Source of the DNA: a virus
DNA: 35,700 nt
Virus record (IMG/VR): IMGVR_UViG_3300044971_002607
Coordinates: 1-35,700 of that record
Reading direction: 5' to 3' (one strand)
Shown: piece after piece, positions 20,168 through 29,968 of the stretch
Layout: the number at the start of each line of letters is the position of its first letter
Numbering within the stretch: position 1 is the stretch's first letter
Notes under the pieces: generated by a model
The model's database searches: none
The model's input: the letters and a program-made list of their open reading frames with translations, nothing else
What the model was told of the DNA's origin: nothing
Position numbers and translations under genes: made by a program

Positions 20168-21340
20168 TTATTTATTTATGTATGATAAAATATGTACAAT
20201 TACATCTATTGTCCAGCCATTGCCAAGCATTTTATATCTTTGAGTATCTGAAACGTGGTTTGTGTAGTTGTCTGCAACAGTCTGCAACCTTTCGCATTCA
20301 ATTGGAGTTAATCTGCGGATGCGTGAATCAGGGTTTATTATTGGCACATGACCTCCACCCATACCCATAGCTGCAACCATTGGAGTACTTTTGTTTATAT
20401 ATGTCGTTGCGTTTTTTTGTAGCCCTCCAATACACTTTATCTCAACCGCATTTGTATTGCCAGTATCTAAACAATAAGTTTTACCATCTGATCTGCTTAA
20501 ATGACCTGTTCCACCTTTGCCCGATGTTGATGAACGTGGCATTGTGTTGTGTACTATTAAATCATCTACACCACTTCCTCCTATTTTTATGCAATTAGAT
20601 TTTTGATTATCATTTGGTATTCTTGGAGTAAATGGATGGTTGTTTTTAATTCTATCAAAAATAAAAGATTTCTCACTCAAAAAATACTTCTCATCAACTT
20701 CACTTTCAAGTATATCTTTCAATAAAATGCCCTTGTCTTTTGGTTGCTCAATAATACTTTCTAAATCGCCAAAAAGTCCGCCCGGTTTCATTCCAATATT
20801 AGTCCAGTATATCCTTTTTCTGTTTTGCGCTGAAACCAAAGCTGAATTTATGTGAATACCATTAACTCCTATTGCTTTGCTTAATACCTTTTCCCACTTT
20901 TCGCCCATTTCCACGTTTTCAAGTAAAAAGTATTTAGGTTTACATTCATTAAGCAGTCGCATATATTCCCAAAACAAATAGCTTTGCCCTTCAAATTCAT
21001 AACCCTCTGCTTTTAATTCAAGGTAATGTTCAAGCGTTAGTATTTCAGTTTCGCATTTCGTTGACATACCCTTGCGCTTTCCGGCAAATGAAAATGATTG
21101 GCATGGACTTCCACCAATTAATAAATCAATTTTTGGTAAACTATACCCATCTACATTTACAACACTTCCAAGTTGAATAGTATTAGGATAATTAGCCATT
21201 GTTACTTTAATTGCATATTTATCAACTTCGGATGCAAAATAATTGTCTACTTTAATTCCTAATCTTTCAAGTGCTTGTTGTCCACAACTCATACCATCAA
21301 ATAAAGATAAAACATTTATGCCGTTATTATTTTTTTTCAT
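20168..21340 (-). CDS. C5-cytosine DNA methyltransferase
   Basis: A 390-aa enzyme that transfers methyl from SAM to cytosine C5. The motifs are complete: I LSLFDGMSCG (11-20), IV GGSPCQS (76-82, catalytic C80), VI ENVE (141-144), VIII QNRKRIYW (172-179), IX RRLTPIECERLQ and X RYKMLGNGW. The DGMSCG/PCQSFSFAG style resembles DNMT3-like phage enzymes. A stretch between VIII and IX is long and Gly/Ser-rich, the likely target recognition region. No restriction endonuclease gene is adjacent, so self-protection of phage DNA is the likely role. It follows hairpin array 1 directly. Confidence 0.93.
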   Translation of the reverse strand: MKKNNNGINVLSLFDGMSCGQQALERLGIKVDNYFASEVDKYAIKVTMANYPNTIQLGSVVNVDGYSLPKIDLLIGGSPCQSFSFAGKRKGMSTKCETEILTLEHYLELKAEGYEFEGQSYLFWEYMRLLNECKPKYFLLENVEMGEKWEKVLSKAIGVNGIHINSALVSAQNRKRIYWTNIGMKPGGLFGDLESIIEQPKDKGILLKDILESEVDEKYFLSEKSFIFDRIKNNHPFTPRIPNDNQKSNCIKIGGSGVDDLIVHNTMPRSSTSGKGGTGHLSRSDGKTYCLDTGNTNAVEIKCIGGLQKNATTYINKSTPMVAAMGMGGGHVPIINPDSRIRRLTPIECERLQTVADNYTNHVSDTQRYKMLGNGWTIDVIVHILSYINK

Positions 21341-21397
21341 GTTATAATATTAATATTGTTTGTTTTATGTGGAGGTGTTTATGATTCAATAAGTAAG

Positions 21398-21598
21398 TTA
21401 GTGGTCATGCAAGTCAACGTAACCACACTTTTCACACCTTCTATCAAGGTCATCATCCTCATAGGGTTTCAACCATACAAATTCATGGTTGCACGAAGCA
21501 CTAACATTAAATAAACGCAATAGCTCACTTAGTGCTTGTTGAACGGGCATCGTGCCTTCATCAACTTTTATCAATATATTTTCAATTTGTTTTTCCAT
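21398..21598 (-). CDS. Cassette ORF: leader plus zinc-ribbon-like body (66 aa)
   Basis: The 66-aa product has a leader of 31 residues (ending LLRLFN) encoded inside palindrome element 3 and a body starting VSASCNHEFVWL after the GTTAG core. The body carries C36, H38 and a late CEKCGYVDLHDH, a probable zinc-binding set. The leader is clearly related to the leader of the 113-aa ORF at 21906 (LLLGLFS then VSG). The stop TAA sits in the closing CACTAAC core. Confidence 0.7.
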   Translation of the reverse strand: MEKQIENILIKVDEGTMPVQQALSELLRLFNVSASCNHEFVWLKPYEDDDLDRRCEKCGYVDLHDH

Positions 21599-21633
21599 AT
21601 CGCTACTGCGTTTATTATTTTCCGTTATAAGCC
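21498..21633 (-). repeat. attC-like palindrome, element 3
   Basis: Opening core GGCTTATAAC (21633-21624), left arm 21616-21602, right arm 21524-21510 (14 of 15 positions complementary), closing core GTTAGTGC (21505-21498). The 77-nt loop holds the start codon (21598). The single mismatch is a G-T pair on the minus strand. Confidence 0.75.
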
Positions 21634-21849
21634 ATTTTGAATTATCGTATCTAATAAATCAGAAACGGTATCTCTGATAACTTCACGTTTTTTTACAGTC
21701 TTATAATATGGTCTTTTTTCGGTAATCATTTTTACCAATTTTTCTTCAAGCCTAAATCTTTCTTCAATAGAAAAACGGCTTATAACAGCACCTAAACAAG
21801 ATGGCTGGTTCAGTTCTTCGTTCATAGCTTTGTAATCTCTTTCATCCAT
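21625..21849 (-). CDS. Cassette ORF: hypothetical protein (74 aa)
   Basis: The 74-aa product has a 21-residue leader (MDERDYKAMNEELNQPSCLG...) encoded in palindrome element 2 and a body from VISRFSIEERFRLEEK onward, helical and charged. The body begins at GTTATAAGCC and ends at GGCTTATAAC, which contains its TAA stop. The family is not recognised. A small helical protein of this kind could be an inhibitor, antitoxin or regulator, but nothing shows which. Confidence 0.65.
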   Translation of the reverse strand: MDERDYKAMNEELNQPSCLGAVISRFSIEERFRLEEKLVKMITEKRPYYKTVKKREVIRDTVSDLLDTIIQNGL

Positions 21850-21913
21850 TGTTCTTCGTATTAAACTTCGAGGTATAATCAGCCACCTCGTTTAGCTGCA
21901 TCACGTTAGTGGC
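21778..21913 (-). repeat. attC-like palindrome, element 2
   Basis: Opening core GCCACTAAC (21913-21905), left arm 21895-21877, right arm 21810-21792 (16 of 19 complementary, two of three mismatches G-T on the minus strand), closing core GTTATAAGC (21786-21778). The 66-nt loop holds the start codon (21849) and a small internal hairpin. Confidence 0.75.
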
Positions 21914-22247
21914 AACTTAAAACATCAAACTCGGTAAAACTTATTCCGCTTATTTGATTTATTCTTGTTAATTTATTGTTGTCATCTCTTATTACTATGT
22001 GTGGTTCTTTTTTCCACAAATGAATGACATCAATCATTTCAATATTTATTATTTGGTACGTTTTCCCAACTGTGTATTTTTTTGATTGCGAATACACTTT
22101 TGTGCATTTTAAATAATCTCCTTTTTTAGCATTTGCCAATAAGCAGCCACTAACACTAAATAAACCCAATAAAAGGTTTCGTGCTGTTTCGGTGTCTATC
22201 GCTCCGTTTCGTAGGTCGTCTGCAATTTTGATAATTTCGTTTTTCAT
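21906..22247 (-). CDS. Cassette ORF: leader plus small beta domain (113 aa)
   Basis: The 113-aa product has a 31-residue leader (ends LLLGLFS) inside palindrome element 1 and a body from VSGCLLANAKKGDYLKCTKV. The body reads as a small SH3-like beta barrel (GKTYQIINIE...HIVIRDDNNKL). The TAA stop lies in the closing CCACTAAC core. The leader shows the same DxLxxGxxxxxxAxxLLxxLFxVS pattern as the 66-aa ORF. Function unknown. Confidence 0.7.
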   Translation of the reverse strand: MKNEIIKIADDLRNGAIDTETARNLLLGLFSVSGCLLANAKKGDYLKCTKVYSQSKKYTVGKTYQIINIEMIDVIHLWKKEPHIVIRDDNNKLTRINQISGISFTEFDVLSCH

Positions 22248-22282
22248 ATCTTTTACTGTGTTTATTTGTAAACGTTATACGC
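22146..22282 (-). repeat. attC-like palindrome, element 1
   Basis: Opening core GCGTATAAC (22282-22274), left arm 22267-22250, right arm 22175-22158 (16 of 18 complementary), closing core GTTAGTGGC (22154-22146). The 74-nt loop carries the start codon (22247). The opening core is not complementary to the closing core, and no matching body start (GTTATACGC) is seen upstream, so this is the array border. Confidence 0.75.
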
Positions 22283-27750: not shown

Positions 27751-27832
27751 TTTTTATTTTTTTTCTTATATCCTCCCAATATTGGAAGATTGAGGAAGTT
27801 TTTATGCTCCAATCGACAAGTTAGCACCAATA

Positions 27833-28492
27833 CTACCATCCTGCACATTTGAGAATATGTAGTCCTAATTTTGGTTCAACACAATTATTTAATAATGTTC
27901 TTTTATCTCCTTTGTAATTGTGCCAATCTTTTATGTCATATCCTTTTGCATCCATTTTTATTTTTAGCGTAATACCTTTATTGTTGCCAGTATCATTGGT
28001 TTTAATTTCAATTTTAGGTATTTCAAAGTTTGTCCAAAATGAATGCCTGCCAATATATTGAGGATTTATAAGTGGCTCGTACCAACTTTTTACATTTTCT
28101 ACTACAAATTTTATTTCTTTTCCTTTTGTATATTGTTGCAAAAACAATATTTCTTCATACAATTTCATATCTGGGAATAATGCTTTACCCTTACCATTGC
28201 AATATGCTTTAAATCTCATTCTGCTGTGTGTTGGACAAGGTGGAGAAGTCCAAATAAAATCATAATTCATAAAATTATCTTGTAAATATTGGTGTGCGTC
28301 AGTAACAATTACTTTATCGTTTGGGTAAAAGTCTTGATATATTTTCGCAATACTCTCATTATATTCAACAGCAGTTACTTCTACATTTTCCCAATGTTTG
28401 CGGTTTCCTCCAATTCCTGCGTATAGGTTTAAAACCCGTACTGGTGCTAACATCGGTTTGGCAAAATTGCCGTTCTGTGCTTCGATTGACAT
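27833..28492 (-). CDS. Cassette ORF: small C5-type DNA methyltransferase
   Basis: A 219-aa protein with cytosine-methyltransferase motifs: I NLYAGIGGN (22-30), IV TSPPCPTHS (82-90, catalytic C86) and VI VENVK (131-135). It is short and lacks a clear large target recognition domain, so its specificity or activity is uncertain. The first 14 residues (MSIEAQNGNFAKPM) come from palindrome element 7. The enzyme proper begins near VRVLNLYAG. TAG stops it 5 nt before the closing GTGCTAAC core. It probably protects phage DNA from host restriction. Confidence 0.85.
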   Translation of the reverse strand: MSIEAQNGNFAKPMLAPVRVLNLYAGIGGNRKHWENVEVTAVEYNESIAKIYQDFYPNDKVIVTDAHQYLQDNFMNYDFIWTSPPCPTHSRMRFKAYCNGKGKALFPDMKLYEEILFLQQYTKGKEIKFVVENVKSWYEPLINPQYIGRHSFWTNFEIPKIEIKTNDTGNNKGITLKIKMDAKGYDIKDWHNYKGDKRTLLNNCVEPKLGLHILKCAGW

Positions 28493-28572
28493 TTTATCTT
28501 AATTTAAACATTTGTACTACTAATGAAGTTCTGTGTTCGGCAACTTCGCCAAGCCGAGAACCGTTAGCGGTC
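28443..28572 (-). repeat. attC-like palindrome, element 7
   Basis: Opening core GACCGCTAAC (28572-28563), left arm 28557-28538, right arm 28472-28453 (17 of 20 complementary), closing core GTTAGCACC (28451-28443). The 65-nt loop has AGTACAAATGTTTAAAT and the ATG at 28492. The left arm is nearly identical to that of element 4. Confidence 0.8.
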
Positions 28573-29025
28573 ATTCCAAGACAACTCTTCGTGAACAAGT
28601 GAGTAATAAAGATTTTGAAGTTCGTGAACATATTTAATTCCACAAGAGATGAAATCAAACTTATTATTGTCTTCGTCTTTATTTGCATCAGTGTATGAGT
28701 GATAAAAGCCCCAATCGTCTCTAAATGGTGCATAAGCAAAAGAGTATTTATAATCCATTATCCAAATGCTGTAATAATTTCCGTGATTGTGTGATGGTGA
28801 TTTTTCTTCATTTTTAAATCCAAATCGAAACAACCATTCTTCTGTAATAGGTATTGGCTCGTAACCTAATTTATTAATTCCTTCATCATTCCATATATCG
28901 AAAATTGACCTCGCATCAATTGTTACAACTATGCCATTTCTTTTAATAAAGTTTCCGACAGATAAGGAACGAACCGCTAACAGTGGTTTTGCGTCATTGG
29001 GGGCTTTAGTGCTATCTATAATCAT
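28564..29025 (-). CDS. Cassette ORF: Bacteroidota phage-type hypothetical protein (153 aa)
   Basis: The 153-aa product starts at ATG 29023-29025, inside palindrome element 6. The leader MIIDSTKAPNDAKPL precedes the GTTAG junction, then the body LAVRSLSVGNF. It includes YEPIPITEEWLFRFGF (around 53-68) and KYVHELQNLYYSLVHEEL near the end, phrases typical of a widespread uncharacterised family in Bacteroidota and their phages. The TAA lies in the closing CCGCTAAC core. Function unknown. The 29055 start is less likely (non-ATG). Confidence 0.75.
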   Translation of the reverse strand: MIIDSTKAPNDAKPLLAVRSLSVGNFIKRNGIVVTIDARSIFDIWNDEGINKLGYEPIPITEEWLFRFGFKNEEKSPSHNHGNYYSIWIMDYKYSFAYAPFRDDWGFYHSYTDANKDEDNNKFDFISCGIKYVHELQNLYYSLVHEELSWNDR

Positions 29026-29111
29026 TTGTGCTATATTTAAAATTTGTACTATCAATCGGCTTTAGTGCTGGAAATACCCAACGAACGCAAAGCCACAAAA
29101 CGTTAGTAGCT
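28973..29111 (-). repeat. attC-like palindrome, element 6
   Basis: Opening core AGCTACTAAC (29111-29102), left arm 29096-29077, right arm 29001-28983 (17 of 19 positions with one unpaired base in the left arm, as in real attC stems), closing core GTTAGCGGT (28981-28973). The 75-nt loop has AGTACAAATTTTAAAT and the start codon. Confidence 0.8.
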
Positions 29112-29358
29112 ATTGTTTGCCTATTACCCTCTCCGCTATGAAGTCAAGGTAATCCCAATTTTGGTCTGCAAACTCCGATTTAATTTCTGCGATAAAGGCA
29201 AACAACAGTTCGCTTCGCCTACTAACATCATGTAGGCGTAATGCTTCGTTTACGGTTTCAACAAAGCAATTTTCATCCATTCCTTGTACCACATCATCTG
29301 TGTCTACATAGCAGTTACTTCTATTCTTAAATAACTGTCTTAATTTTTGTTCTTCCAT
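29110..29358 (-). CDS. Cassette ORF: hypothetical protein (82 aa)
   Basis: The 82-aa product has a long leader (43 residues, ending EALRLHD) inside element 5 and a body from VSRRSELLFAFIAEI. It is helical and acidic. TAG is at 29110-29112, just before the closing ACTAAC core. No family recognised. The long leader makes this the exception among the seven (loop 141 nt). Confidence 0.65.
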   Translation of the reverse strand: MEEQKLRQLFKNRSNCYVDTDDVVQGMDENCFVETVNEALRLHDVSRRSELLFAFIAEIKSEFADQNWDYLDFIAERVIGKQ

Positions 29359-29416
29359 TCTATTAAAATTTATCGTTAATAATTCGCACTACGCCTACAT
29401 GAGTGCCGTTAGCGGT
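29219..29416 (-). repeat. attC-like palindrome, element 5
   Basis: Opening core ACCGCTAAC (29416-29408), left arm 29402-29386, right arm 29244-29228 (16 of 17 complementary, mismatch a G-T pair), closing core GTTAGTAG (29226-29219). The loop is 141 nt and holds the start codon at 29358. Confidence 0.75.
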
Positions 29417-29657
29417 AATGTTTGATAGTCCATTCTAAGAAACATTTGTCAATTGTTTGACCACTTACCCAATTGTTGTAAACGAATTTAGAAAAATCAA
29501 GCATATCTTTTTTCTCAAAGACATCTTTTTGACTGCCAGTTAGTACCTTACAACCAATTAAAAAGTCATCAAATTCTTCTGACTTAATCGTGAAAGTATC
29601 TCCGTTTTTATTAACTAATTCGTTTTTTTCGTTTATTGCTAATTCTATTTTTTTCAT
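29409..29657 (-). CDS. Cassette ORF: second gene of the two-gene cassette (82 aa)
   Basis: The 82-aa product starts at ATG 29655-29657 (MKKIELAINEKNELVNK), one base after the stop of the preceding ORF. It is helical, with acidic Phe-rich patches. The TAA lies in the closing CCGCTAAC core. The paired arrangement within one cassette resembles toxin-antitoxin or immunity pairs, but neither protein has a recognised motif. The frame opening at 29711 is less likely. Confidence 0.65.
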   Translation of the reverse strand: MKKIELAINEKNELVNKNGDTFTIKSEEFDDFLIGCKVLTGSQKDVFEKKDMLDFSKFVYNNWVSGQTIDKCFLEWTIKHYR

Positions 29658-29658
29658 A

Positions 29659-29886
29659 TTATGATACGCTAAAAGTTTTTCCATTTGATGTTTCACAATA
29701 ATATCTACCAATCAGACCTTGTCTGTAATGAAAATCATTTGCTACTGAAATAGCGTGATGGTCTGATATTGCCTTTAATTGAAATTCAATTTGCTTTATT
29801 CCTCCGATAACTTTGAACATTACGAAAGAAACACTACCGCTAACATCGGCTTGGCAAGATTGGGGGTTCTGTGGTAAATTGTCCAT
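29659..29886 (-). CDS. Cassette ORF: first gene of the two-gene cassette (75 aa)
   Basis: The 75-aa product has leader MDNLPQNPQSCQAD encoded in element 4 and body VSGSVSFVMFKVIGG, a small alpha/beta protein (QIEFQLKAISDHHAISVAND...). The body starts at GTTAGCGGTAGTG. It ends with TAA one base before the next ATG. Function not recognised. Confidence 0.65.
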   Translation of the reverse strand: MDNLPQNPQSCQADVSGSVSFVMFKVIGGIKQIEFQLKAISDHHAISVANDFHYRQGLIGRYYCETSNGKTFSVS

Positions 29887-29968
29887 TTGTATTTCTATTT
29901 AAAATTTGTACTAAAATTAAGCGATTGTGCTTCTAAGTCCCCAACCTCGCCAAGCCGAGAACCGTTAT
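29836..29968 (-). repeat. attC-like palindrome, element 4
   Basis: Opening core ATAAC (29968-29964, degenerate, contains the stop of the upstream gene), left arm 29958-29939, right arm 29865-29846 (18 of 20 complementary, both mismatches G-T on the minus strand), closing core GTTAGCGGT (29844-29836). The 73-nt loop has AGTACAAATTTTAAAT and the ATG at 29886. Confidence 0.8.

Follow-up and report, generated by a model that had tools for sequence, protein, structure and literature searches.

Cassette arrays with attC-like sites in a probable Bacteroidota phage and their likely origin in an integron-like system with a non-IntI recombinase

The window analyzed here, meaning the whole stretch of DNA under study, is a 35,700-base IMG/VR virus record with 33% GC, probably from a Bacteroidota phage. 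Most of its genes lie on the minus strand, and its gene content includes a terminase and a methyltransferase cassette akin to Flavobacterium phage genes. A scan for TAAC...GTTA elements with complementary arms revealed seven attC-like hairpin sites on the minus strand, arranged in two arrays at 28448-29967 (array B) and 21502-22277 (array A), and no other match at that score; the same arm scan on 60 Markov shuffles gave a mean of 0.1 sites per window, compared to the seven observed. All seven sites open with TAACG, close with TGTTA, and share an A at -11. There was no match to the window in Rfam at the gathering threshold.

In array B, site B1 (29841-29967), which reads TAACG...TGTTAGCGG, folds with a z-score of -4.26 on the minus strand. 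The body of cassette B1 (29408-29840) runs from GTTAGCGGTA to ATTACCGCTAAC, with its own start and its own end matching at 6/6 positions; the ORF list places two frames on the minus strand, one at 29659-29886 that starts inside site B1, followed by one at 29409-29711. Site B2 (29223-29411) contains the start of an ORF of 82 aa and unknown function (29110-29358) that reads through the GTTA. Site B3 (28978-29105) encodes the N-terminus of the 163-aa product of cassette B3 (28564-29055; phrog_10066, unknown). Site B4 (28448-28566, fold z -2.94) contains the start of a 219-aa DNA cytosine methyltransferase-like ORF (27833-28492; PF00145, E 5e-9), and this cassette closes with an end core, GTATTGGTGCTAAC, at 27820-27833. 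A sequence-only reading of this DNA had described four attC-like palindromes here; all four held, with slightly tighter coordinates and on the minus strand, and the arm complementarities of 18/20 and 16/17 were reproduced.

The sites extend further than that reading had noted, with three more in array A, also on the minus strand. Site A1 (22151-22277) contains the start of a 113-aa ORF (21906-22247) with homologues in four other contigs (L024-L027). Cassette A2, with site A2 (21783-21908), carries a 74-aa ORF (21625-21849) and runs GTTATAAGC...GCTTATAAC, and site A3 (21502-21627) contains the start of a 66-aa ORF (21398-21598). The array ends in a TAAC at 21397-21400. Immediately 3' of array A (20168-21340) is another, full-length C5 cytosine methyltransferase, which the core rule described below places outside any cassette. 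No tyrosine recombinase was found in the window, either by PF00589 or by a profile of the phage recombinases described below, and a search for a clear attI at the ends of either array also found none. CALINs are defined by at least two attC sites, called with the HattCI/IntegronFinder models, in the absence of intI; the window has seven sites, by our own arm scan, and no integrase. We infer that it is a recombinase-less, CALIN-like form that would depend on a recombinase supplied in trans.

The unit between sites starts with GTTA-N6 and carries the inverse, N6-TAAC, at its own end, as in GTTATAAGC...GCTTATAAC and GTTAGCACCA...TGGTGCTAAC. The claim, made in the earlier reading, that each cassette begins with the inverted copy of its own end thus held: over the 6 nt beyond GTTA/TAAC in the seven window cassettes, there are 35/42 matches between a start and its own end, the best of 5,040 pairings (mean 19.6). 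This is a slight under-count, as the last cassette scored 3/6 with its end placed 2 nt off. Across 145 unique cassettes from related loci, own start and end agree at 4.43/7 positions compared to 2.18 when pairings are random; agreement between the two cores of a single site, at 2.19/7, is no better than this random level. The match between a cassette's own start and end, together with the mismatch between cores within a site, places the unit boundary at GTTA, as in integron cassettes. The complementarity continues to about 14 nt, interrupted by a constant mismatch at +6 (G at the start, T at the end). Because the site finder itself demands complementary arms, we repeated the test blind to the arms; in 140 cassettes defined from cores alone, hairpin arms were present at the next core in 62%, compared to 0% with the arms swapped.

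The sites have the palindromic R'' L'' L' R' layout of attC, and 227/236 unique sites from the related loci point the same way, the unpaired bases numbering 5 on one side and 1-2 on the opposite side. They do not meet the GTTRRRY consensus for R'; only 11-15 of 227 cores fit (5-7%), upholding the earlier observation that the cores differ from it. That reading had also proposed folding the sites as single-stranded DNA. All five window sites that we folded are more stable on the minus strand, which in integron usage is the bottom strand; folding is clearly significant in B1, B4, and A2 but not in A1 and B3, and the differences in stability between top and bottom strands are modest. That a single strand is the recombination substrate, and which strand is chosen, are inferences. 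The arm scanner is tuned to this site type and says nothing about canonical attC sites: it gave no site in a classical Bacteroidia IntI locus (L185).

A recombinase does adjoin arrays of this kind in related contigs. One contig (L006) shares the single-strand-annealing-region gene with the window and carries seven sites with a 276-aa tyrosine recombinase just past the array. Searching IMG/VR with this recombinase and one relative yielded 80 loci; many of the related records are fragments, and the prevalence figures are lower bounds. The recombinases are 240-290 aa long, with the array directly upstream: site density is 0.50/kb upstream of the gene compared to 0.02/kb downstream (25x), and of the 68 loci where 600 nt or more of upstream sequence is available, 63 have one or more sites there. 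The last cassette closes with its own TAAC, directly against a conserved TAAC-TAYTATATRTA, which lies at a near-fixed distance from the recombinase gene in 48/64 loci. When pairs of loci are aligned, identity is 85-100% after this junction and 17-57% before it in 32/39 pairs; the other seven are near-copies. From sequence alone, we infer that the junction is attI-like, and in these related loci, though not in the window, an attI lies beside an integrase that diverges from the array. Searched on its own, the junction pattern occurs in 60 places, 22 of them with a recombinase gene 42-57 or 446 nt downstream; many of the 60 have neither recombinase nor sites and are probably chance matches. In two contigs (L235 and L239), the recombinase match begins 446 nt downstream of the pattern rather than about 52. 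Five contigs from large phages (L201, L207, L214, L217, and L229) carry attC-like arrays and the attI-like junction with no recombinase adjoining. The distant recombinases of Polaribacter phage Leef and Cellulophaga phage Ingeline have no array of the window type near them.

The catalytic residues R, K, H, R, H, and Y are invariant in 61 full-length phage recombinases. By both sequence and fold, their nearest relative is XerA (5hxy, Z 23.9), followed by IntI4 (Z 22.0), and they match NF040815. An additional domain around patch III is a defining feature of integron integrases (PMC9668308). Where IntI4 has about 63 residues, the phage proteins have 18-21, so that the IntI-specific insertion is absent from them. 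The IntI-domain criterion is thus not met, the window having no recombinase and the related phage recombinases no insertion. In a tree that took in only three IntI proteins, the phage recombinases form one clade (100/100) beside longer Bacteroidia homologues and apart from IntI and XerC/D. The regions fetched around 19 Bacteroidia homologues, about 10 kb for most, contained no attC-like site. One Bacteroidia genome held a recombinase of the phage clade with a site beside it, and IntI scored above the cut-off in only 1/247 Bacteroidia genomes. XerA-like homologues are common on Bacteroidia chromosomes (L152-L170), where they are mostly 360-420 aa long with an N-terminal extension and have no attC-like sites beside them. 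Catalysis of cassette exchange by the phage recombinase remains an inference, as no experiment has been done on it.

The orientation of the cassette genes departs from the integron norm, in which genes mostly run away from attI and are driven by Pc. In 148/155 cassettes, the longest ORF is on the same strand as the recombinase gene and reads toward attI, and the site is therefore the 5' region of its gene. In about a third of these (52/148), the gene begins within the site; 51 continue through GTTA, and a hairpin arm thereby encodes the N-terminus. That the site supplies the ribosome-binding region is inferred. The cargo has a median length of 97 aa and is mostly of unknown function; DNA methyltransferases are the commonest recognizable group, alongside RNA ligases, a TET-associated glycosyltransferase, GNAT proteins, and PAPS-reductase-like proteins. 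Cargo function is inferred: part of the cargo, with its many DNA methyltransferases, may well be anti-restriction, allowing escape from host restriction.

Comparison with other contigs shows cassettes in new surroundings. A copy of cassette B4 with 92% DNA identity is present in L010, a phage that is otherwise unrelated, with homology ending exactly at 27819/27820; more distant copies with the same end point occur in six further contigs (L012-L016 and L021). Site B3 is found at 95% identity in L022 and L023, followed there by different methyltransferase cassettes, and homology stops at GTTA. Plasmids gave no match to the B4 methyltransferase, and 84,980 species genomes gave just one, which lies in a phage-like contig; blastn of site B3 against INPHARED gave no match. 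In a phage-looking contig from a Lake Baikal MAG (L028:4663-7206), a DnaB helicase with an apparent intein is directly followed by a copy of cassette B4.

Cultured Flavobacterium phages give stronger evidence of mobility than the contigs. Arrays of the window type occur in phages hemulen, stinky, mumin, filifjonk, and tooticki, where each consensus feature is shared by 26-27 of the 27 sites checked. Between mumin6-2 and mumin6-3, one 506-bp unit differs; between hemulen6-1 and stinky9-1, 1.18 kb differs; filifjonk9-1 exceeds mumin9-1 by one unit at the array end and by about 1.6 kb inside; and tooticki6-1 has a different end cassette from mumin6-3. In these pairs, the breakpoints fall on GTTA and the flanks are 99.3-100% identical. 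These data show recent gain and loss of whole cassettes with exact breakpoints. The sequence-only reading would have been refuted had related phages never broken at GTTAG; instead, GTTA breakpoints recur in contigs and cultured phages alike. No recognizable recombinase of the phage family was found in the eight cultured Flavobacterium phages with cassette turnover, so an unidentified enzyme must act in trans. The paper describing these phages (PMC7077304) reports 26 core genes of 142 and finds poor plating on LMO6 by LMO9 phages that lack one methyltransferase; neither integrons nor cassettes are mentioned in it.

Polaribacter phage Freya is a cultured system with its own, distant recombinase, and whole units distinguish its isolates from the same host. 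Relative to Freya_9, Freya_10 carries an extra 307 bp, and Freya_7 an extra 472 bp relative to Freya_5; the extra units (isolates L256, L258, L259, and L260) sit directly before the same stretch of about 49-54 nt upstream of the phage's own XerA-like integrase. The Freya sites did not match the TAAC/GTTA scan, and the kinship of Freya is therefore only a lead.

How do these arrays compare with known systems? Like integrons (IntI, attI, and attC), they consist of one-gene cassettes built as GTTA-body-TAAC-hairpin units that are gained and lost whole, with attI next to a recombinase that is transcribed away from the array; the integron criterion of a cassette start complementary to its own end with crossover at the core is met. 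Unlike integrons, they are carried by phages, their recombinase lacks the IntI-specific insertion and belongs to a separate clade, the core is GTTA-K-N-N with complementarity to about 14 nt and a fixed G/T mismatch at +6, the spacers are 5 and 1-2 nt, the attI sequence is different, and the genes run toward attI. The system thus works like an integron but falls outside the IntI integrons by the IntI-domain and GTTRRRY criteria. Clusters of attC sites without an integrase have been described in virulent phages, including Polaribacter phage P12002L with methyltransferases, and for one P12002L site, attC2, recombination of the bottom strand by IntI1 has been shown (Qi et al, 2023; PMC9892861). 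The P12002L sites have the same asymmetry as those of the window type, and these phage CALINs resemble our arrays in their attC-like sites, methyltransferase cassettes, and lack of integrase. Unlike the present analysis, that study assigns the sites to ordinary integrons, tested with IntI1; absent from it are a phage recombinase of this clade, its attI, the reversed gene direction, and natural cassette turnover. Phage CALINs were therefore already known. In the literature searched, we found no account of the phage recombinase clade, its attI, the departure of the core from the usual consensus, the reversed gene direction, or natural turnover, nor any description of a phage-encoded recombinase with such arrays. 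A paper on epsilon crAss phages proved unrelated. Archaeal XerA, XerC/D, and the 360-420-aa Bacteroidia homologues are closest in fold and sequence; unlike the phage recombinases, the 19 Bacteroidia homologues have no attC-like site in the regions fetched.

The two arrays are likely to be clusters of cassettes from an integron-like system that is carried by phages and uses a recombinase other than IntI. The sites, the cassette rule, the exact breakpoints, the association with recombinase and attI, and recent gain and loss are all shown by the sequences. In the proposed mechanism, the complete form, as in the related contigs, would comprise a gene for a XerA-like recombinase of 240-290 aa, the attI-like TAAC-TAYTATATRTA, and a row of cassettes. 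A cassette circle would have the form GTTA-body-TAAC-hairpin arms, and the recombinase, acting at the GTTA core, would link a folded attC-like site either to attI or to a second site, each such event inserting or removing one whole cassette. Outward from attI, the predicted geometry is that of classical integrons in that transcription of the recombinase leads away from the array, but the cassette genes point to attI; each site would form the 5' end of its gene, supplying the start codon in about a third of cassettes. Against this explanation stand the lack of a recombinase in the window and in the eight cultured Flavobacterium phages and the lack of a clear attI bordering either window array, as well as the modest strand differences in fold stability and the non-significant folds of A1 and B3. 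Since IntI1 recombines a P12002L attC of the same asymmetric type, a classical IntI acting in trans is not excluded. A bolder reading, to which we lean with reservations, is that phages own an integron platform that arose independently, around a XerA-like recombinase lacking the IntI domain considered essential for single-stranded attC, and that in this platform the site is also the translation start region of the gene. The earlier reading had offered either an integron-type cluster or a separate system resembling one: its cassette logic and hairpin sites held, as did the exact breakpoints at G/TTA, and the second alternative is the better one in view of a recombinase other than IntI, a different core consensus, and reversed gene orientation.

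Several rival explanations deserve weighing. The arrays could be ordinary CALINs, cassettes of bacterial IntI integrons picked up by phages and moved by a host IntI. Published clusters of attC sites without IntI in virulent phages, the recombination of a P12002L attC by IntI1 (PMC9892861), and the absence of a recombinase from the window all favor this idea. We consider it unlikely: IntI scores above the cut-off in only 1/247 Bacteroidia genomes, GTTRRRY fits only 11-15/227 cores, the arrays adjoin a distinct recombinase clade and its own attI, and the genes are reversed in 148/155 cassettes.

Less likely still is the view that the palindromes are expression or packaging elements (terminators or 5' UTR hairpins) exchanged by homologous recombination between similar palindromes. 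The sites do lie at gene 5' ends, with start codons in 52/148, and phages recombine readily; but the breakpoints fall exactly at GTTA between dissimilar sites, and neither the start/end rule, with its mismatch of cores within a site, nor the association with recombinase and attI fits this view. It is comparably improbable that host XerC/XerD moves the cassettes at dif-like cores, like the pdif modules of Acinetobacter plasmids, which lie between 28-bp XerC/XerD half-sites, or the integration of CTX-phi. Turnover in cultured phages without any recombinase and the Xer-like relatives of the recombinase speak for it. Against it, the arm sequence is free to vary from site to site, as fits recognition by fold and not by sequence (a point with no dif search behind it), and the arrays are tightly linked to the phage recombinase clade.

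Integron function is attributed to a single integrase family with an extra domain that reads the folded, single-stranded attC, and XerCD is said to lack adaptation to such a substrate (PMC4792948). If a separate clade does the job of an integron, the integron principle arose or persists without the IntI domain, and the phage system would offer a direct comparison for testing integron evolution. For the phages themselves, the arrays are one source of mosaicism, in which small accessory genes, many of them encoding DNA methyltransferases, are traded as units.
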